Source of the DNA: Nitrospiraceae bacterium
Lineage (GTDB): Bacteria; Nitrospirota; Thermodesulfovibrionia; Thermodesulfovibrionales; UBA1546
Direction: 5' to 3'
DNA length: 64,000 nucleotides
Assembly: GCA_021373015.1 (NCBI GenBank)
Contig: JAJFTJ010000007.1
Location: forward strand, 107,135-171,134
The position numbers and the translations under genes were made by a program. The stretch's first letter is position 1. Each line of letters opens with the position of its first letter. Below the pieces are notes generated by a model that saw nothing but the letters and a program-made list of their open reading frames with translations, did no database searches and was not told the origin of the DNA. This document shows, in pieces, positions 3,394 through 19,051 of the stretch.

Positions 3394-4101
3394 TTATTCT
3401 CCCAGATATGCTTTTTTGACTTTTTCATTGTTCAGGAGTTCTTTCCCTTTGCCTTCAAAGATGATTCTCCCGTTTTCAATCACATAACCTCTGTTTGAAA
3501 GATTGAGAGCAGCATGTGCATTCTGTTCAACAAGCAAGACAGTTATTCCTTCATCATTAATTTCTTTTATTGCCTTGAATATTCTGGCGACCATTATTGG
3601 AGCAAGTCCTAGCGAAGGTTCATCAAGAATGAGAAGTTTTGGGTCTGACATTAATGCTCTCGATATAGCAAGCATCTGCTGCTCTCCTCCGCTTAATGTG
3701 CCGCCCATCTGTTTTTTGCGCTCTTTAAGAACAGGGAATAATTCAAATGTATTCTCAAGTTTGTCTTTAAGTTCTAAAGCCTTCAGGTTTTTTGAATATG
3801 CGCCAATCTCAAGATTTTCCTTAACAGTGAGTTTGGGGAATATTCTTCTTCCTTCCGGGACATGGCTTATTCCCATCTGAACAATCTCATGCGGCTGTTT
3901 TTTGGAGATTAATTCTTTTTTAAAAAATATTTCTCCGCTTGATGATTTAATCACTCCAGAGACAGTCATGAGAGTGGTTGATTTGCCTGCACCGTTGCTT
4001 CCTATGAGACATACTATTTCTCCGCTGTCGACCTTAAGCGATATGCCTTTGAGAGCTTCGACAGGACCATAATGTGTCTTTATGTTTTTTAATTCAAGCA
4101 T
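3394..4101 (-). CDS. livF: Branched-chain amino acid ABC transporter, ATPase LivF
   Basis: This is one of the two cytoplasmic ATPases that power uptake through LivH/LivM. It shows Walker A GSNGAGKST, the ABC signature LSGGEQQ and Walker B LLILDEPSLGLAP. The GRRIFPKLTVKENL segment is typical of LivF. I set the start at ATG 4101, where the reading frame overlaps the livG stop (ATGCTTGA) and GGGAG lies 4 bases upstream. An upstream in-frame start at 4116 is possible but would deepen the overlap. It is the last gene of the livHMGF operon. Confidence 0.92.
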   Translation of the reverse strand: MLELKNIKTHYGPVEALKGISLKVDSGEIVCLIGSNGAGKSTTLMTVSGVIKSSSGEIFFKKELISKKQPHEIVQMGISHVPEGRRIFPKLTVKENLEIGAYSKNLKALELKDKLENTFELFPVLKERKKQMGGTLSGGEQQMLAISRALMSDPKLLILDEPSLGLAPIMVARIFKAIKEINDEGITVLLVEQNAHAALNLSNRGYVIENGRIIFEGKGKELLNNEKVKKAYLGE

Positions 4102-4861
4102 TAAACTCCCTGCCAAGATATGCTTCTATCACCATTGGATTTGTTCTTATTTCCAAGGGGGTTCCTTCAGCGATTTTCACGCCATGATCAAGCACAACAA
4201 TATTATCTGAAATTCCCATTACAACCTTCATGTCATGTTCAATAAGAATAATTGTCTTGCCAAGTTTTTGAAGTTTTTTTATCAGAGTCATCATCTCTGA
4301 GGTTTCTTGAGGATTCATTCCTGCTGTGGGTTCGTCGAGAAGTATTAGTCTTGGTTCTGTTGCAAGTGTCCTTGCTATCTCAAGTCTTTTCTGACTGCCA
4401 TAAGAAAGATTTGATGCAAGTGTGTATGCAACATCTTCAAGTCCGACAAGTTCGAGGTACTCGATAGATTTTTGGTGAACTATTTTATCTTCTTCGATGA
4501 ATTTTCTATTTCTCAATATAGAATCAATTAGATTGGTTTTTGTTCTGCAGTGATGAGATACCATTACATTTTCAAGAACGCTCATTTCTCTGAAAAGTCT
4601 TATGTTCTGGAATGTTCTAGCCATCCCAAGTTTTACTATATTATTAGCCTTAAGTCGTGTTATGTCTTGCTCCAGAAAATATATATTCCCTCTTGTAGGT
4701 CTTATTAAACCAGTAAGACAATTAAAGAGCGTTGTCTTTCCTGCGCCGTTAGGCCCGATTATGCTCAGAATGCTGTTTTCCTGAACCCTGAATTTTACCT
4801 CTTCAACAGCTTTTATGCCGCCGAAATGTTTTGTCATATCTCTAACTTCAAGTAGAAACAA
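4094..4861 (-). CDS. livG: Branched-chain amino acid ABC transporter, ATPase LivG
   Basis: This is the second ATPase of the liv transporter. Walker A is GPNGAGKTT, the signature is the LivG-type LSYGSQKRLEIA, and Walker B is ILLDEPTAGMNP. The longest frame begins at ATG 4873, but that ATG is part of ATGGAGGTAAGATTG. The GGAGG with 5-base spacing instead points to TTG 4861 as the start, giving 255 residues that begin M-F-L-L-E-V-R. The start overlaps the end of livM by 14 bases, so translation is probably coupled. The function call is firm; the start is inferred. Confidence 0.9.
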   Translation of the reverse strand: MFLLEVRDMTKHFGGIKAVEEVKFRVQENSILSIIGPNGAGKTTLFNCLTGLIRPTRGNIYFLEQDITRLKANNIVKLGMARTFQNIRLFREMSVLENVMVSHHCRTKTNLIDSILRNRKFIEEDKIVHQKSIEYLELVGLEDVAYTLASNLSYGSQKRLEIARTLATEPRLILLDEPTAGMNPQETSEMMTLIKKLQKLGKTIILIEHDMKVVMGISDNIVVLDHGVKIAEGTPLEIRTNPMVIEAYLGREFNA

Positions 4862-6005
4862 TCTTACCTCCATGATGAGAACTGCTGGGCCTGAAAATTC
4901 CCTGAGGCCTGAAAATCATGAGCAATACAAGTCCGCTTCCAAGCGCAAGCATTCTGTACAACTGAACTTCCCTGAGCATTTCAGGCAGGATAACTAGTAT
5001 CGCTGCTCCTAATATTACGCCTCTAAGGCTTCCTAGCCCGCCTAGTATTACCATTGAAAGAATTAATACAGATTCCATGAACGTGAAACTCTCAGGCGAC
5101 ACAAAACGCATTTTAGCTGAAAATAATACGCCTGCAATTCCTGCCCAGAAAGAACCGAATGCAAATGCATAAAGTTTATATGATGTCGGATTAATACCCA
5201 ATGATATTGATGCAATTTCATCTTCTCTTATCGCAACCCATGCTCTCCCGATTCGCGATGTATAGACTCTCTTTATTATGAAGACTGATAAGAGTACAAA
5301 AATAAAAATAAGATAGTAATAATGGCTGAGCTTATTAATCGTCATACCGAAAATATAAGGTCCTGCAATATCTCCGATTCCGTTCGGACCTTTTGTAACT
5401 GAATCCCAGTTGTTGAGAACAAGTCTTACTATTTCGCCGAATCCAAGTGTCACTATCGCAAGATAATCGCCGCGGAGCCGTAAAGCCGGTATGGCAAGTA
5501 TGAATCCTGATATGGTCGTTATAAAAACAGCTATCGGCAGTGCAGACCAGAATCCAAGCCCGAAGATTGAATTCAACAGCGCATATGAATATGCGCCTAT
5601 TGCATAGAATGCCACAAATCCTAGATTAAGAAGTCCTGCGAAACCGACAACGACATTCAGACCCTGCGCTAGTATTATATAAATGCCGGTCAGGACGGCC
5701 ACATCCAGAAAATAGTCTTTTGCAAAAAAAGGAACAGAAAGGATAAAAATAATCAGTAGAATTTTGCCTGAGAAGATGTTTTTTTTACTTTTTATGAACT
5801 GAAGCTTTTTGTTGAGCAGAAGTATTTTAGTTTGGATTTTTTCTATAGATGTTTTTGTATGCTGAGAAATAAGTTTGATAAAAAACAATGATGCGAGAAC
5901 CACGGCAAAAAGTATTGCTGCAGCTTCTATCCCCTTGAAAGGCAAAAACAGAAGTCCTGTCCAGAATGCGATTAATAATATTTTAAAATTAAACTTTTTC
6001 TTCAT
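4848..6005 (-). CDS. livM: Branched-chain amino acid ABC transporter, permease LivM
   Basis: LivM forms the membrane channel together with LivH. The 385-residue protein has two or more extra N-terminal hydrophobic segments (to about residue 100) and a Lys-rich linker. The core then shows the family motifs GLLNLGFVAFYAIGAY, PALRLRGDYLAIVTLGFGEI and GGLGSLRG. The start is placed at ATG 6005, which has GGAG 6 bases upstream; an in-frame ATG at 6017 is less likely. It overlaps livH by 17 bases. Confidence 0.92.
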   Translation of the reverse strand: MKKKFNFKILLIAFWTGLLFLPFKGIEAAAILFAVVLASLFFIKLISQHTKTSIEKIQTKILLLNKKLQFIKSKKNIFSGKILLIIFILSVPFFAKDYFLDVAVLTGIYIILAQGLNVVVGFAGLLNLGFVAFYAIGAYSYALLNSIFGLGFWSALPIAVFITTISGFILAIPALRLRGDYLAIVTLGFGEIVRLVLNNWDSVTKGPNGIGDIAGPYIFGMTINKLSHYYYLIFIFVLLSVFIIKRVYTSRIGRAWVAIREDEIASISLGINPTSYKLYAFAFGSFWAGIAGVLFSAKMRFVSPESFTFMESVLILSMVILGGLGSLRGVILGAAILVILPEMLREVQLYRMLALGSGLVLLMIFRPQGIFRPSSSHHGGKIVST

Positions 6006-6891
6006 GCGAAGCTCCAAATAGACCGGATGGTTTAATAAGAAGTATTATTATAAGAAGAATAAATGCATAGGCATCTTTGTATTCTGAAGAGATATAGCCT
6101 GCGCTGAGACTCTCTACTAGGCCAAGTATAATTCCTCCAAGCATTGCGCCAGGGATACTGCCGATGCCGCCAAGAACTGCCGCAGTAAATGCCTTGATGC
6201 CGGCGATGTATCCTATAGAATAATTTACAAGTCCGTAATACATTGCTACCATGAATCCCGCAACGGCAGCGAGTCCTGAGCCTATTATGAATGTGATGGA
6301 TATAACAGTGTCTAAATTAATCCCCACGAGTGATGCCATTGTCTTGTCCTGTGATACTGCTCTCATTGCCTTGCCAATCCTTGTTTTTTTGATTAACAGA
6401 TGCAGTAAAAACATCAAGACTGCTGATATGACGATAATTAAAAGCTGCGTGTAGGTAACTTTTGTGTTGAGAATATCAATTCCTGTTTTTTCGAAAAAAT
6501 GAGGAAATACCTTGTCAGTTGCTCCTTGTGTGAGCATGACATAATTCTGGAGAAAGATCGAAACTCCTATTGCGCTTATTAATGGGCTTAAGCGAGGCGC
6601 CTGCCTCAAAGGTCTGTATGCAATTTTTTCTATTGCATAGCCGTATCCAGAGCAGAACACGATTGAGAGAATAAGTGAAAGTACTAATGCAAGAGGAAGA
6701 TTGTATGCTATTAACCCCAGTGCGGTGAAGAAAGCAAGAAATATAATACCCAGATATGCGCCAAGCATGTATATTTCACCATGGGCAAAATTAATCAGTT
6801 CAAGTATCCCGTAAACCATGGTGTACCCCAGTGCAATAAGCGCATATACTCCGCCTAATGTAAGTCCGTTAATTAACTGCTGGGTGAGCAC
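5989..6891 (-). CDS. livH: Branched-chain amino acid ABC transporter, permease LivH
   Basis: LivH is the partner permease of LivM. Its N-terminus (LINGLTLGGVYALIALG, then NFAHGEIYMLGAY) is diagnostic of the family, and it has about eight hydrophobic segments. The 300-residue length is normal. The start is GTG at 6891 without a clear Shine-Dalgarno sequence. This is the first gene of the operon. The periplasmic binding protein (LivJ/LivK) that normally precedes or follows these genes is absent: the next gene upstream is the divergent metK, only 100 bases away. Confidence 0.92.
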   Translation of the reverse strand: MLTQQLINGLTLGGVYALIALGYTMVYGILELINFAHGEIYMLGAYLGIIFLAFFTALGLIAYNLPLALVLSLILSIVFCSGYGYAIEKIAYRPLRQAPRLSPLISAIGVSIFLQNYVMLTQGATDKVFPHFFEKTGIDILNTKVTYTQLLIIVISAVLMFLLHLLIKKTRIGKAMRAVSQDKTMASLVGINLDTVISITFIIGSGLAAVAGFMVAMYYGLVNYSIGYIAGIKAFTAAVLGGIGSIPGAMLGGIILGLVESLSAGYISSEYKDAYAFILLIIILLIKPSGLFGASHEEKV

Positions 6892-6991
6892 AAAAAATTT
6901 TAACAGAAATTGATGTGCAAAATCTTCTTCTATTTTGGAAGAGAATCTTTTAAACTATACGTTCAAGTAAATTCAAAGGCAGGAGGTACGA

Positions 6992-8143
6992 ATGGCAAAG
7001 GGTAATTTTTTCTTTACTTCAGAATCAGTAACAGAAGGACATCCTGATAAGATAGCTGATCAGATATCAGATGCTATTCTGGATGCGATAATATCAAGAG
7101 ATCCTAAATCAAGGGTTGCTTGTGAGACAATAGTTACAACAGGTCTTGCATTTGTAGCGGGAGAAATAACAACAAGCTGTTATGTCGAGATACCTTCAAT
7201 TGTCCGCGAGACAATAAAGGACATCGGATATACACGCGCAAAATACGGATTTGATTATGAGACCTGCGCTGTAATCACTTCTATCCACGAACAATCTTCA
7301 GATATAGCAATGGGCGTTGATATAGGAGGCGCAGGAGACCAGGGGTTGATGTTTGGATATGCCTGCAATGAAACTCCAGAACTTATGCCGATGCCTATTA
7401 TGCTTGCGCATAAGCTTTCAATGAGACTTTCAGAGGCAAGAAAAAAAGACATCCTGGGCTATCTGAGGCCTGACGGTAAATCTCAGGTAACAATCGAATA
7501 TAAAAACGGAGTGCCTCACAGGATTGACAGCATCGTAATATCTTCTCAGCACAGCCCTGACATAACTCTGAAAGAGATGAAAGAGGATATTATCGAAAAG
7601 GTCATAAAGCCGATTGTGCCTAAAGAAATTCTTGACGAGGAAAATGTTAAATATCACATAAATCCTACTGGCCGCTTTGTTGTGGGCGGTCCGATGGGCG
7701 ATACAGGCCTGACAGGAAGAAAAATAATAGTCGACAGCTATGGCGGAGTTGGAAGTCATGGAGGAGGCTGTTTCTCTGGAAAGGATCCAACAAAGGTTGA
7801 CCGCTCAGGCGCATATATGGCCAGATACATTGCAAAAAATATTGTTGCAGCAGGAATTGCCGACAAGGTTCAGGTTCAACTTGCATATGCTATAGGTATC
7901 CCGGAACCTGTTTCCATACTTGCTGATACTTTTGGAACAGGAAAGATTGAGCATGATAAGATAGTCAAGATTATCAGAAACAATTTCAATCTTACGCCAA
8001 AGGGGATGATAGATACGCTTAATCTCAGAAGACCAATATTCAGAAAGACTGCTGCATACGGTCATTTTGGAAGAAATGACGCTGATTTTACATGGGAGAA
8101 TACAGACATAGCATCAGTTCTTAAAAAAGAAGCAAAGTTGTAG
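6992..8143 (+). CDS. metK: S-adenosylmethionine synthase
   Basis: MetK makes SAM from methionine and ATP. The 383-residue protein has the signatures [12 protein letters not shown] near the N-terminus, the hexapeptide GAGDQG, and [13 protein letters not shown] followed by DSYGG near residue 250. AGGAGGT lies 4 bases before the ATG. It begins a forward run with ahcY and cimA; ahcY recycles the S-adenosylhomocysteine produced by SAM-dependent methylation. I found no SAM riboswitch in the 100-base leader. Confidence 0.97.
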
Positions 8144-8214
8144 AAATAAACAGCGCATAGTTTTACTAATGACTGTTCGCTGGATAATATTCACAAATAA
8201 AATTCGGAGGCTGA

Positions 8215-9474
<1,260 letters not shown>

Positions 9475-9485
9475 TTATTTTGAAA

Positions 9486-11051
9486 ATGCTCCAGAGAATT
9501 GAAATATATGACACAACATTGAGGGATGGTGCCCAGGCAGAAGACATTTCGTTTTCTGTGGATGACAAGCTGGCTATTACATCAAAGCTTAATGATCTTG
9601 GCATTCACTATATCGAGGGAGGCTGGCCGGGCTCTAATCCTAGAGATGCCGAGTATTTTAAGAGAGTAAAAAAACTTAAGTTAAAAAATTCAACAATAGC
9701 TGCTTTTGGAAGCACACACAGTCCGAAACATAGCGCAAGAGATGATGCAAATCTGAAGTCCCTGATTGCAGCCGAGACATCAACAATCACTATTTTTGGA
9801 AAGACATGGGATTTTCATGTTAAGGAATCACTAAGAATATCATTAAAGGAAAACCTTGAAATAATACATGGCTCAGTTTCGTATCTGAAAAAATACACTG
9901 GCAAGGTATTTTTTGACGCAGAGCATTTTTTTGACGGTTACAAGTCAAACCCTGAGTTTGCAATTGCCTGTATTAGCGCTGCAAGTGATGCCGGATCAGA
10001 CTGTCTTGTTCTTTGCGATACAAACGGCGGGACAATGCCCGATGAGATAGAAGCTATAACAAAGAAAGTCATAGAGAAGATTAAATCTCCGGTAGGAATT
10101 CATGTGCATAATGATTCTGAATGTGCTGTTGGGAATTCGATTATTGCTGTAAGGGCAGGGGCAGCACAAGTTCAGGGAACAATAAACGGACTTGGGGAAA
10201 GATGCGGGAATGCAAATCTCTGCTCGATTATTCCTAATCTCAAGCTCAAACTTGGAATCAAATGCATAAGCGATAAACAGCTCAGGAAACTCAGGGATGT
10301 ATCAAGATTTGTCAACGAGATAGGAAATCTCAGACATTTTAAGAGACAGCCTTTTGTCGGAGACAGCGCTTTTGCACATAAGGCTGGGATTCATGTGAGC
10401 GCTGTTATGAAAAATCCTGAGACTTATGAACATGTAAAACCTGAACTTATAGGAAACTCGCACAGAGTCTTGATATCAGACCTTGCAGGAAAGAGCAATA
10501 TAATTAGAAAGGCAAAAGAATTTCATATAAAAATAGAGCCGGATTCACCGAAGCTTCAGGTAATACTAAATAACTTGAAGGATCTGGAGTATCAGGGATT
10601 TCAGTTTGAAGGCGCAGAGGCATCTTTCGAGCTGATTTTGAAAAAAGCATTCGGTCTTCACAAAAAATTCTTCGAACTTATAGGATTCAGAGTGATAGTA
10701 GAGAAAAGAAAAGAGGGCGAAGATCCTCTAACCGAAGCTACTATTATGCTGAAAGTCGGAGGTAAGATAGAGCATACTGCTTCTACAGGAGACGGACCGG
10801 TTAATGCTCTTGATAATGCATTAAGAAAAGCCCTTGAAAAATTCTATCCCAAGCTTAAAGAAATAAAACTTGACGACTATAAGGTCAGGGTTCTGACAGC
10901 AGGCAAGGGAACATCTGCCAAGGTAAGGGTTTTGGCAGAATCAGGCGACGGCAGGAAGAAATGGTGGACTGTAGGAGTATCAGAAAATATAATTGAAGCA
11001 TCATGGCAGGCTCTTGTTGATAGTATAGAATATAAACTGTTAAAAGAATAA
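9486..11051 (+). CDS. cimA: (R)-citramalate synthase
   Basis: CimA condenses pyruvate with acetyl-CoA to citramalate, opening the threonine-independent route to isoleucine. The N-terminal HMGL/TIM-barrel domain has DTTLRDGAQ and the metal-binding [13 protein letters not shown], then GERCGNANL. The C-terminal region from about residue 390 is a LeuA-type allosteric domain. I prefer ATG 9486, which begins [15 protein letters not shown] as in relatives; in-frame codons back to 9456 overlap the ahcY stop. No strong ribosome binding site is visible at 9486. A 2-isopropylmalate synthase call is less likely given the length and domain arrangement. Confidence 0.92.
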
Positions 11052-14904: not shown

Positions 14905-15732
14905 ATGTATATCAACAGAGCAGACAATTATATTTCCTTTGAGCAATCCCTGTTAGTAATAGATAACTGTGAAAGAACCAGAGAAAATCTTTTTTCTGTG
15001 TTCAGAGGCAGAATAAAGATATTTATTGCCCGCACCGGTTCCGAGGGGCTCGATATGCTTTCCGAGAATACAGGGGTAGTCCTGTTGAATTACATTCTTC
15101 CTGATATGGAAGGAAGTAATGTTTTGAGGGAAATAAAAATACGCTATCCGTCTATACCGGTAATTGTTATGACAAGTTATGGAAGCGAGGAAATATGCCA
15201 AAAGGTTTTTAGACTAAGGGCAATTGATTATATAAAAAAGCCATTAAATATAGATGAGATTAGAGATAAAGTAGATATTCTTCTGAAAATCAGGGATAAC
15301 AAATCTGGGAACAGAGAGCCATTGTTTTTTGAATTATCAAGCGACAGCAAGTGGTGCACAGCAAATCAAATGTCATTCGAAGTGCAAACAAAAATAATCA
15401 AAATAAAAAAATATCTAGACGAAAACTATATGGTTAATATTGACATGCAGAAAATATTGAAGCAGGCCTGCATGAACAAGACCTATTTCTGTAATTTTTT
15501 TAAAATAGCTACAGGACAGACTTTTAAAAATTATTTGATTAATAAAAGGCTTGAAATTGCAAAAAAGCTTTTGAAAAACAGGAAGCTTTCGGTAAGCGAT
15601 ATAGCTTACAAAATAGGTTACACGCCGAAATATTTTTCAGAATCCTTCAAGAAAACAGTTGGGATCTCTCCCCGGAAATTCAAAAAACTAAAAATTGACA
15701 AATTCGGGAATAAATTTGACTACTACAGGTAG
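14905..15732 (+). CDS. AraC-type regulator with a degenerate receiver domain
   Basis: Residues 14-125 form a CheY-like receiver and residues 155-270 an AraC/XylS helix-turn-helix pair (YFCNFFKIATGQTF, then SVSDIAYKIGYTPKYFS). The position normally holding the phosphorylated Asp is Asn 62 (LLNYILPD), and the usual acidic pair is D20-N21. Thr 90 and the KKP lysines remain. The domain therefore probably cannot be phosphorylated in the normal way. No kinase gene is adjacent. It lies 101 bases before the unknown operon at 15834-18101 in the same direction and may regulate it; that link is only positional. Confidence 0.85.
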   Translation: MYINRADNYISFEQSLLVIDNCERTRENLFSVFRGRIKIFIARTGSEGLDMLSENTGVVLLNYILPDMEGSNVLREIKIRYPSIPVIVMTSYGSEEICQKVFRLRAIDYIKKPLNIDEIRDKVDILLKIRDNKSGNREPLFFELSSDSKWCTANQMSFEVQTKIIKIKKYLDENYMVNIDMQKILKQACMNKTYFCNFFKIATGQTFKNYLINKRLEIAKKLLKNRKLSVSDIAYKIGYTPKYFSESFKKTVGISPRKFKKLKIDKFGNKFDYYR

Positions 15733-15833
15733 TCTTTCTCTCTCCTTAGTGATATTTTTTTACACTAGCAGAGGTTAGTTCATACAGCTCTCAGAAATTA
15801 AGTTAATAGAAAATAAACCTTGCGAGGTGCTAC

Positions 15834-16199
15834 ATGAAAAAGGTGAAGAGTAAGGGGAAATACAAAATCGCTGCAATCAAAACAACAGCCGCAAGTAGAA
15901 AAGTTTGTGCGGATCATCAGGATTTGTTGAAGATAGCAGTCCTTGCGAAAAATTCGATTAAAGAGGAGCCAAAACTAGGCATGCTTTTTATGGTAAACCC
16001 AGTTCTTGCAATAAAGGAGATGGGTGTTGAGTTAACTGACTCAATGACAAAGCATGTAAAAAAAGCTATTAGGACAGCGAAATTAACTGAAGGGAATAAG
16101 GCGCTTTTCAAAAAGGTAAAAAATGGAAAATTTAAGATTCCATGGGTAGATAAAGTAACTTTCAGAAAAAATAAGATCGCTGATGAGATCGGGAGGTGA
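15834..16199 (+). CDS. Small protein of unknown function, first gene of an unknown operon
   Basis: This 121-residue basic protein is not one I recognise. It has no signal peptide. The N-terminus is Lys-rich (KKVKSKGKYK). The middle contains MLFMVNPVLAIKEMGVELTD, which loosely recalls the P-x-x-AL-x-x-x-G-hEL pattern of Nif11/nitrile-hydratase-type leader peptides. No peptide-modifying enzyme is nearby, so I do not call it a leader. The ribosome binding site is AGGTG. Its stop lies inside the strong GGGAGGTGA ribosome binding site of the next gene, so the two are coupled. Confidence 0.7.
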   Translation: MKKVKSKGKYKIAAIKTTAASRKVCADHQDLLKIAVLAKNSIKEEPKLGMLFMVNPVLAIKEMGVELTDSMTKHVKKAIRTAKLTEGNKALFKKVKNGKFKIPWVDKVTFRKNKIADEIGR

Positions 16200-16202
16200 A
16201 AA

Positions 16203-17603
16203 ATGCCTAATGCATTAACTTCGGATTTTGAACTTGCTGCGCAGATTTCAGAAAACGTAGTCAGCAGAATTTTAGAAGGAGCTTATTTGCATGAAAGCAT
16301 ACCTCACAAAATTACCCGCAATTTTAATCAGTCCGGAACAGGAGGGAATGCTGATATCGATCTCTTTATGCCTTACATGAACTTTGACGTTATTTCAAGC
16401 GACCCTAATCCTATAGAAATAATATTTCCTATTAAAGCAAGGCTGAATATCACAAATCCTGCATGGGGAGAATTTAATGTAGAGGGGGATTTATCGGTTA
16501 TTACCTCTGTCGAAAAAATCAGGTCTTTTGATTCTTCGATAGGAGCTGATGTTGATGTTGTTGTGGTAAATTTCACTGACCTTTCTGATGAAGACTATAC
16601 CATTCACATAGTGGATGATATTGAGCACAAGGAAATAATAGAACTGATTATAAAGGAAATGATACGCCAGACTTTGCAGAATGAAACTCAGAAAATAGCT
16701 CTCTCGCCCGGAGTAACGCATGGCACAAACAGCGTCCAGTTCTTCGAGATGAAAATTGTCAATGATAGAACTCCTGCCGACCTTGATTATATGGCTCTTT
16801 TGATGAATTTCAGCAATACTCATACAACACCTGGCACAATAAATCCTTTTATCAGGCCGAACAAAGATTTTGCATTGGCTATCTCAAGAGAACTTGTTCA
16901 GACTAAATTTAATGATGCGATTACAGCGAAATTCGGCAGCCTTCCGGCAAGAATGCCGAGTGATAGCTCGATAGTGCTTCGTTCTTTGAATATGTCGCTT
17001 GAGAATGGGCATATACATGTGAGCGGAAGTTTAACTAAAGAGATTGACTGTTGGCCTGACGCAGATGTGGATTTCTCAGGTGATATTACTTTGAGTGTCG
17101 GGTCAGGGGGACAATTAGTTGCAAGTTCTCATAATGTCGATGTTGATCTTCCTTGGTGGGCGGATTTTTTAGGCGCAATTATTCCTATTATCGGATGGAT
17201 TGCTCTTGCTGTGATTTATGACGTTGTTGAGGACATGGCAGGAGACCTTTTGGCAGGAGAGATCACAGGTGCTTTTTCAGATCTCTCGCTCTTTCCTTCC
17301 ACCATACCACAGGTAGGAGGAATGGTCGAAGAAGCTCCGTCTTTCAGCACACGTAATGATGATGTTGAAATAAGACAGGAAGGATTGATTATCCACGGCT
17401 CAGTATTTCTGGATGAAGACGTCAGTGTCACAAGTTATCCCCTTGTCGGGAACAAACGCACATGTGAATTGCATTATGCAAACTGCTACTGGGTAACACA
17501 GATGTTTGACCACAATAAAAAAGGATTTGGCAGGAGAGAAGATGCCATCAGCATGGGATACAACGGCTGCTGGTATTGCATGAGAGATTATGATACAGGG
17601 TAA
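16203..17603 (+). CDS. Unknown protein, possible TULIP/P47-like lipid-binding fold, with a Cys/His C-terminal motif
   Basis: The 466-residue protein has no signal peptide and is dominated by alternating beta-type sequence. An amphipathic-hydrophobic stretch (WWADFLGAIIPIIGWIALAV) lies near residue 325. The layout loosely recalls tubular lipid-binding (TULIP, P47/OrfX-type) proteins; this is a weak fold guess. The last 46 residues are distinct: Cys 421, His 424 and Cys 428, then GYNGCWYC with Cys 456 and 459. They look like a small zinc site, reminiscent of Ada-type metal-binding tails. GGGAGGTGAAAA precedes the ATG. It sits 3 bases after the small basic gene and 39 before an exported protein. 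Confidence 0.7.
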   Translation: MPNALTSDFELAAQISENVVSRILEGAYLHESIPHKITRNFNQSGTGGNADIDLFMPYMNFDVISSDPNPIEIIFPIKARLNITNPAWGEFNVEGDLSVITSVEKIRSFDSSIGADVDVVVVNFTDLSDEDYTIHIVDDIEHKEIIELIIKEMIRQTLQNETQKIALSPGVTHGTNSVQFFEMKIVNDRTPADLDYMALLMNFSNTHTTPGTINPFIRPNKDFALAISRELVQTKFNDAITAKFGSLPARMPSDSSIVLRSLNMSLENGHIHVSGSLTKEIDCWPDADVDFSGDITLSVGSGGQLVASSHNVDVDLPWWADFLGAIIPIIGWIALAVIYDVVEDMAGDLLAGEITGAFSDLSLFPSTIPQVGGMVEEAPSFSTRNDDVEIRQEGLIIHGSVFLDEDVSVTSYPLVGNKRTCELHYANCYWVTQMFDHNKKGFGRREDAISMGYNGCWYCMRDYDTG

Positions 17604-17642
17604 TCATATTAAAAAATACTTTAATTCAACAAAGGAGGAAAA

Positions 17643-18101
17643 ATGGTAAAAAAAACATTTCCTTATCTGCTGTTGTCATTGCTTTTTATGCTGCCTTTTT
17701 TAATGGGCGGTATTTGTGACGGAGGCGGCAATGGAGGAGGAACCACGCCTACAGTGGCAGCAGTGAATTTAAGCGTAAAGTGGCCTTCTGGATTTTCCAA
17801 TGTTAATTGTACATCACGCTTAATCTGGAATTTTACTCCGGGCACGCTTACGGGCACAAGCGGCACTTCAACCCCTTTTGCTGTTGACCATAATTACAGC
17901 AGTACTTCAGATTCATATGGAGTATGTTATTTTTCTGATCTGATCACAAACATGAAAGTGGGTACATGGACAATAGCGGTTACTGATGGAGCTTGGGTAA
18001 CAAGCTGTGTACAGACGTTAGCAGCTGGAACTAATAATCTGAAATTTACAATAGGAAGGGCTGGATGCACAACAGGGTTAAATCCTTATCCCGGTGGCTG
18101 A
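17643..18101 (+). CDS. Exported Cys-containing protein of unknown function
   Basis: This 152-residue protein begins with a clear signal sequence (KK then a hydrophobic run to about residue 23). The region MGGIC at 21-25 resembles a lipobox but has Ile at -1, so lipoprotein status is doubtful. A Gly-rich linker (GGGNGGG) follows. The rest is a probable beta-sandwich rich in Ser/Thr with four further Cys residues that could form disulfides. I do not recognise the family. AGGAGGAAAA gives a strong ribosome binding site. It is the last gene of the operon, closed by the terminator at 18129. Confidence 0.72.
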   Translation: MVKKTFPYLLLSLLFMLPFLMGGICDGGGNGGGTTPTVAAVNLSVKWPSGFSNVNCTSRLIWNFTPGTLTGTSGTSTPFAVDHNYSSTSDSYGVCYFSDLITNMKVGTWTIAVTDGAWVTSCVQTLAAGTNNLKFTIGRAGCTTGLNPYPGG

Positions 18102-18128: not shown

Positions 18129-18155
18129 AAGGGGCAGTTCAAACTGCCCCTTTTT
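18129..18155 (+). terminator. Rho-independent terminator
   Basis: GGGGCAGTT at 18131-18139 pairs perfectly with AACTGCCCC at 18142-18150 across a two-base centre, and TTTTT follows. A-rich bases upstream could make it work weakly on the other strand. It closes the operon 15834-18101. Confidence 0.92.
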
Positions 18156-18166
18156 ATAACTATAAA

Positions 18167-18931
18167 ATGATTCAATATACTCCACAGCCAGTAATATCCT
18201 TCAACGATTTTTCTGTTCATATGCACAGCCTTATGCTGTCTTTGGCAATGATTTCAGTTTATGCAATAACCTTATTGAGAATAAAAAGAAATAAACTCGA
18301 TTTTCATTTTTTCACATGTCTTTCTGTATGGGTTTTAGCAGGGGCTTTCATCGGCGCAAGATTGCTTTCTGTTATTTCTCAATATGGTTATTATAAAGAC
18401 CATTTATTTGAGGTGATCTCTTTACAGAAAGGCGGCAGATCGATCGGAGGCATCTTAGGAGGATTGGCTGCAGCGACTCTATATTCAAATATAAAAAAAC
18501 AGAACATATGGAAATATGCAGACCAGGCAGCTCCGGGTATTTTAATTGGAATTTTTATTGCGAGAATCGGGTGTTTTTTGAATTGGGATGATGTTGGTCT
18601 GCCATGCAATCTAGCATGGTGTATCTCAGTAAATAATGAACCGTCAAGACATCCATATCAATTATATGAATCAGTGACAGGTTTGTTTTTATCATTGTTT
18701 CTTTTTAAGCTTGAACAAAGAAAGTTTTTTGACGGAGGAGTTTTTTTAATGTTCTGTGTTTTTTATTTTCCAGCCAGATTTTTATTGGAATTCTTGCGCG
18801 ATTCAAAAAGATATTTCCTTGATTTAACATTTTCACAAATAACAATAGGATTCCTTTTTATTGTGGTCAGCGGATTTTTTACTTTTAAAAAAATTAGAAT
18901 ATTGTCTTTTTTTCATTCAAGGAAAACTTAA
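18167..18931 (+). CDS. Lgt-like prolipoprotein diacylglyceryl transferase family protein (divergent)
   Basis: Lgt moves a diacylglyceryl group onto the lipobox Cys of prolipoproteins at the inner membrane. This 254-residue polytopic protein keeps the signature ARIGCFLNWDDVGLP (residues 132-146), HPYQLYE and the C-terminal RFLLEFLRD, so two Arg positions important in E. coli Lgt are retained. The usual SFHGG segment is GGRSIGG here (residues 89-95) and lacks the conserved His, and the usual G-N-F of the signature is G-C-F. It may be a paralogue with altered substrate or activity, while the housekeeping Lgt is encoded elsewhere. It follows the terminator by 11 bases. Confidence 0.72.
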   Translation: MIQYTPQPVISFNDFSVHMHSLMLSLAMISVYAITLLRIKRNKLDFHFFTCLSVWVLAGAFIGARLLSVISQYGYYKDHLFEVISLQKGGRSIGGILGGLAAATLYSNIKKQNIWKYADQAAPGILIGIFIARIGCFLNWDDVGLPCNLAWCISVNNEPSRHPYQLYESVTGLFLSLFLFKLEQRKFFDGGVFLMFCVFYFPARFLLEFLRDSKRYFLDLTFSQITIGFLFIVVSGFFTFKKIRILSFFHSRKT

Positions 18932-19051
18932 TGAGATCAATCAACATTTTTCCTGTCAAAATCCGCTAACTCATTGACACTATTAAATTTTTCCTGATAT
19001 ACTTTATTCAACTATCCCTAGAATGGAGGCAGAGCTCGCTCTGATGTTCTT

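Follow-up and report, generated by a model that had tools for sequence, protein, structure and literature searches.

A three-gene cluster of a Nitrospiraceae bacterium, located within a 64,000-nucleotide stretch of DNA (hereafter the window), is best read as encoding a signal-less TULIP-type protein that would bind a hydrophobic ligand and carry a zinc docking module, together with a basic partner protein that is co-translated with it. The cluster lies in an accessory insertion between cca and glgC. We hold this reading as a whole with even confidence, and its parts with the different strengths given below.

Organization of the three genes

The first gene, orf1 (positions 15834 to 16199, + strand), encodes a strongly basic protein of 121 amino acids, and the second, orf2 (16203 to 17603, + strand), an acidic protein of 466 amino acids with a predicted TULIP-type core and a predicted Ada-type zinc tail. 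The third, orf3 (17643 to 18101, + strand), encodes 152 amino acids and is predicted to be exported from its hydrophobic N-terminus. Shine-Dalgarno sequences precede all three genes on the + strand, GAGGTG at 15824 to 15829 for orf1, GGGAGGTGA at 16191 to 16199 for orf2, and AAGGAGGA at 17632 to 17639 for orf3. The TGA stop codon of orf1 (16197 to 16199) lies inside the Shine-Dalgarno sequence of orf2, and orf1 and orf2 are therefore translationally coupled as described earlier. Just beyond the stretch from 15834 to 18101, an intrinsic terminator is found at 18129 to 18152 (+ strand), the stem of which is a perfect 10 bp helix with a folding energy of -17.3 kcal/mol (z -5.1) that none of 200 shuffled sequences equaled. 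A consensus terminator scanner did not call this hairpin, a miss that we ascribe to pairing of the stem with some of the T run. The ribosome binding sites, the coupling and the perfect terminator of the initial annotation were all confirmed in the sequence, and the strong ribosome sites, the tight co-directional spacing and the single terminator suggest that the three genes are on one transcript.

Neither orf1 nor orf3 gave a match above chance in Pfam, NCBIfam, PHROG or PADLOC, and neither had a relative in the PDB by sequence. The orf1 protein has no export signal, and its net charge (K+R minus D+E) is +19, compared with -37 for the orf2 protein. Relatives of orf1 were absent from viral contigs, and no homologue was found among 101 relatives, a result that counts against our reading in that it gives no sign of a conserved pairing of orf1 with orf2. 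Residues 51 to 87 of orf1 (NPVLAIKEMGVELTD) contain a weak motif resembling the NHLP clan. This region scored 13.4 bits (E 0.062) against the NHLP/Os1348 clan model NF038399, below its curated cut-off of 40 bits, and with a locally built NHLP profile 3 of the 3753 scored shuffles reached the orf1 score. An identity of orf1 as an NHLP-type leader protein is suggestive only and was not adopted.

The orf3 protein consists of a strongly hydrophobic N-terminus typical of export, a Gly-rich linker and a Cys-containing, beta-rich domain. No standard lipobox was seen, as Ile precedes Cys25. Its one clear relative, in the genome G207 (locus L115), also has the Gly-rich linker and the Cys-containing domain, and orf1 and orf2 are absent from its vicinity. 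Conversely, orf1 and orf3 are absent near the relatives of orf2 (loci L002 and L035), and a locus elsewhere with any two of the three genes was not found in everything searched. A lack of co-occurrence elsewhere had been named at the outset as a finding that would refute the initial interpretation, and this is what everything covered here showed. It could be supposed instead that the cluster is a chance gathering of three independent accessory genes at an insertion hot spot, without a joint function and with a functional coupling of orf1 to orf2 alone. The lack of co-occurrence and the uneven GC content of the genes (0.33 to 0.43) are in line with this supposition; however, the strong ribosome sites, tight co-directional spacing and single terminator suggest one transcript, and we regard such a gathering as unlikely.

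Insertion between cca and glgC

In the window, cca and glgC are separated by about 4.1 kb containing a receiver-AraC regulator, orf1 to orf3 and a paralogue of Lgt. In two genomes of the same family, cca and glgC are direct neighbors, about 140 bp (G004, locus L080) and 70 bp (G012, locus L084) apart, and the promoter side of glgC is conserved between the window, from about position 18963, and same-family genomes. This comparison identified the block from 14.9 to 18.9 kb as a small accessory insertion that separates the two housekeeping genes. Since a PIN gene or LexA-like genes occupy the cca-glgC interval in other relatives, the block is accessory cargo at a variable site. Flanking direct repeats were not seen around it, and it did not stand out as foreign when its composition was compared.

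The first gene of the block (14905 to 15732, + strand) encodes a regulator of 275 amino acids with a receiver domain (Pfam Response_reg, 3.5e-16) and an AraC-type helix-turn-helix domain (HTH_18, 1.3e-16). The upstream AraC-type protein of the initial annotation, proposed there as a possible regulator of the three genes, was thus correct in its DNA-binding domain, but this domain is fused to a receiver and the protein is not a plain AraC. By eye, comparison with the canonical receiver motif places Asn at the phosphoacceptor position (LLNYILPDMEG), and the protein is possibly a pseudo-receiver that may not be phosphorylated. The last gene of the block (18167 to 18931, + strand), which starts 15 bp past the terminator stem, encodes a second Lgt (prolipoprotein diacylglyceryl transferase) paralogue (Pfam LGT, 1.4e-44). 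It scored 99.7 bits against the TIGR00544 equivalog model, below the cut-off of 118.9 bits, shows 30% identity to the other Lgt copy in the genome and has an altered active-site region (ARIGCFLNWDD).

Beside cca in the relative G001, genes for a GmrSD-type endonuclease, a YhcG-type nuclease, a PD-(D/E)XK nuclease and a Pol-beta-type nucleotidyltransferase are located at 3951 to 10834 (- strand) of locus L078, suggesting a defence-rich neighborhood near cca in relatives.

Relatives and predicted fold of the orf2 core

The orf2 protein gave no match above chance in Pfam, NCBIfam, PHROG or PADLOC and no sequence match in the PDB; TULIP families in Pfam and the PDB were likewise unmatched by sequence. 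Weak matches of the three proteins, for example to Reovirus_M2, Pan3_PK and response regulators, were put down to chance. A single relative was found in 84,980 species genomes, a protein of 482 amino acids from Algoriphagus pacificus (P0005). A profile built from the two sequences retrieved a second relative (P0006, 485 amino acids, E 1.3e-33) among 395 genomes of the phylum of the window, in G167, a distant genome within this phylum, and no further relatives were present in 269 genomes of the class of G167 or in 230 of the class of the window. With so few relatives in the genome scans, the orf2 family is sparse and patchy in these samples. Relatives of the core were absent from viral contigs, and in phage and plasmid sequences only the tail was matched, in one plasmid protease. 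The motif D[VI]DLPW[WY]AD, with a hydrophobic stretch after it, is common to all three proteins. In orf2 the motif reads DVDLPWWADFL (residues 313 to 323), and the hydrophobic helix begins near residue 320. The orf2 protein has no signal peptide or hydrophobic N-terminus, and P0005 and P0006 are likewise signal-less.

A TULIP/P47-like fold had been guessed for orf2 from its sequence, and structure prediction with fold comparison supports this guess for residues 220 to 353, at low model confidence. The AlphaFold models of the full-length protein (from a two-sequence alignment, pLDDT 30) and of residues 210 to 407 (pLDDT 38, the half model) are both of very low confidence, and their details are not trustworthy. 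The predicted order of elements in the second half is a helix, four strands, a helix and two strands. With the half model, Foldseek listed Der p 7 first, followed by VirB8, SPLUNC1, juvenile hormone binding protein (JHBP) and OrfX3, VirB8 being the main non-TULIP exception at the top of the list. VIA-align placed the half model on residues 273 to 434 of OrfX3 (Z 8.1, 127 residues, 3.5 A), the other leaders being LBP, P47 (7.2) and BPI (7.2). Independently, with the full-length model, Foldseek gave SPLUNC1 at E 1.3e-3, and VIA-align gave BPIFA1 (Z 8.9), SPLUNC1 (8.7), OrfX3 (8.5) and BPI (8.3), all on residues 220 to 353; Z values of 7 to 8 are, as the alignment tool warns, often reached by unrelated folds. 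This TULIP-aligned region (16860 to 17261, + strand), defined by structural alignment of the models, includes DVDLPWWADFL and the hydrophobic helix.

Several unrelated TULIP families lead both lists, with OrfX3, P47, BPI and BPIFA1 among their members. This is good evidence for a TULIP domain in the second half of orf2, but it falls short of proof. On this view, the hydrophobic helix would correspond to the long helix of the TULIP fold and would not anchor the protein in a membrane. Against this reading stand the low pLDDT values, the absence of any Foldseek match at E < 0.001 for either model, and the helix-grip folds of Aha1 and StART, which come close behind (Z about 6 to 7.7). Absence of a family from these structure-search lists does not exclude that family. 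The lack of a TULIP sequence match also counts against it, as do the confinement of the fold matches to the second half, residues 1 to 200 being without fold evidence, and the profile comparison of the two halves by hhalign, in which no internal duplication was detected. A Foldseek search of viral structures with the orf2 model gave only mixed weak matches.

The predicted C-terminal zinc module and its exchange

The last 51 residues of orf2 (416 to 466; 17448 to 17600, + strand) are a separate module that is matched by profile independently of the core. The profile matched the C-terminus of a 766-amino acid protein of G047, two adjacent large proteins of G347 and many small Ada-type proteins, and the module is also present on an 804-amino acid C13 peptidase encoded by a plasmid of Methanomethylovorans hollandica (41% identity, E 9e-9). 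The Cys/His tail of the initial annotation is therefore a real module, separately conserved and found on other proteins; of its five proposed ligands, however, four are conserved. Alignment and profile predict H424, C428, C456 and C459 as zinc ligands, and these residues are kept in all five large tailed proteins, whereas Cys421 is not conserved. The conserved pattern is H-x3-C and GY[ND]GC-x-[FYW]-C-x3-Y.

By Pfam and NCBIfam, the tailed large proteins include C13 peptidases, one M28 peptidase and one protein weakly resembling M36/FTP with an HEYGH motif. The C13 match in Pfam is below the cut-off for the G047 protein and above it for the Methanomethylovorans protein, and both proteins retain the C13 peptidase His and Cys motifs. 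An N-terminal hydrophobic segment is absent in all four tailed peptidase-like proteins. The M28 and M36-like proteins, both signal-less and with the same Ada-type tail, are the adjacent pair in G347 (locus L022, 6008 to 10868, - strand). In locus L004, a small protein encoded upstream of the C13 peptidase (6720 to 7223, - strand) resembles the N-terminal domain of the peptidase (DLAPxxNWAHPC) and is a possible duplicated module of it. A 70-amino acid phage protein (GYNGCRYCNKEKDTD; locus L027, 7965 to 8177, + strand), which matches phrog_28292, is distantly related to the tail and stands alone, with a spacing of the first ligands that differs from that in orf2.

The tail is linked to Ada_Zn_binding (PF02805) indirectly, through Ada-type modules that match this family and to which the tail subgroup can be aligned. 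An ORF in locus L023 scored 28.7 bits against a cut-off of 23, P0004 scored 12.5 bits and fell below it, and orf2 alone gave no match to PF02805 in Pfam. Profile comparison of the subgroup with the Ada-type modules gave 99%, with an E-value that is biased because the Ada-type sequences had been chosen by a tail profile.

At the place of the orf2 tail, the C-termini of P0005 and P0006 match DUF3892 (E 0.0046 and 0.0011), although each match just misses the Pfam cut-off. The comparison shows a swap of the C-terminal module, by sequence similarity Ada-type in orf2 and DUF3892-like in its two relatives. It may be imagined, as a doubtful extension, that the GYNGC-type tail works as a common C-terminal tag for targeting or docking and brings signal-less C13, M28 and M36-like proteases and the TULIP protein, in bacteria and archaea, to one place or partner, with DUF3892 as the exchangeable alternative on TULIP proteins.

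Proposed function and alternatives

Taking these results together, orf2 most likely has at least one TULIP domain in its second half and acts without a signal peptide. Its groove, closed by the hydrophobic helix, would hold a lipid or another hydrophobic ligand. The Ada-type domain is probably loaded with zinc through its four conserved ligands and may serve in docking or targeting, as a module that can be exchanged. The basic orf1 protein, made in a tight ratio with acidic orf2 through translational coupling, probably binds orf2. The orf3 protein would be an exported product of the same transcript, and its link to orf2 is at most putative.

An alternative is that orf2 is an intracellular conflict effector, acting in anti-phage defence or dormancy, whose core hits membranes or lipids and whose swapped module responds to a signal from nucleic acid or the ribosome. 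DUF3892, carried by the orf2 relatives, is found fused to signal-less Min-Wnt effectors proposed for antiviral conflict (PMC12419801). The insertion site is variable, with PIN and LexA-like genes in relatives and GmrSD, YhcG nuclease and nucleotidyltransferase genes near it in G001, and the distant tail relative stands alone in a phage. On the other hand, PADLOC gave no match and the block contains no known defence gene, the tail is otherwise mostly found on proteases and on nuclease or secreted proteins, and the block's exported protein and lgt paralogue are ill-suited to a cytosolic suicide system. We consider this alternative improbable. Least probable of all is the joint action of the three proteins at the envelope that had been proposed at first, with orf2 delivering lipid to the membrane or removing it from there, and orf3 as a periplasmic partner possibly modified by the Lgt paralogue: the TULIP-type matches, the export of orf3 and the lgt paralogue directly behind the terminator fit it, but orf1 and orf2 are without export signals, orf3 has no standard lipobox and the orf2 relatives are without orf3.

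If the reading of orf2 as a signal-less TULIP-type protein with a docking module is right, a new, patchy and signal-less family joins the few bacterial TULIP proteins. The swapped zinc module would also tie this family to unrelated proteases with the same tail, which gives a lead on the role of the tail.

Comparison with known systems

The orf2 tail resembles Ada_Zn_binding in its H-x3-C and C-x2-C pairs and in the intervening N-K-x2-F and A-x4-GY pattern. The first ligand is Cys in E. coli Ada but His in orf2, and the tail subgroup differs further in its signature GYNGC-x-[FYW]-C-x3-Y-[ND]-T-G at the extreme C-terminus. The Min-Wnt/DUF3892 fusions of the Lipocone superfamily share with the orf2 relatives a signal-less core and a C-terminal DUF3892; unlike them, orf2 itself does not have DUF3892, and a Lipocone identity of the core is unsupported.

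The pseudo-dimeric TULIP proteins of the DUF4403/BPI type are similar in that BPI, BPIFA1 and LBP are among the best structural neighbors of the orf2 models, and the second half of orf2 is predicted to have the succession of helix, strands, helix and two strands described for bacterial TULIPs (PMC6791001). In contrast, DUF4403 proteins are exported or lipid-anchored and orf2 is neither; DUF4403 was not matched by sequence, and a second TULIP copy did not emerge from the comparison of the orf2 halves.

OrfX3/P47 (Clostridium_P47, PF06597) differs in that its profile was matched neither by orf2 (E up to 10) nor by P0005 and P0006 (E up to 1), that toxin and orfX genes are absent among the genes of the window, that the PDB sequence search with orf1 did not return OrfX1, and that orf2 has an Ada-type tail in place of lectin-type domains. 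Nevertheless, it is through its C-terminal TULIP domain that OrfX3 matches residues 220 to 353 of orf2, the proteins are similar in length and in the absence of a signal peptide from orf2, and a gene for a small protein lies beside the TULIP gene in both, OrfX1 by OrfX3 as orf1 by orf2. P47 also occurs with swapped extra C-terminal domains (PMC7020563).
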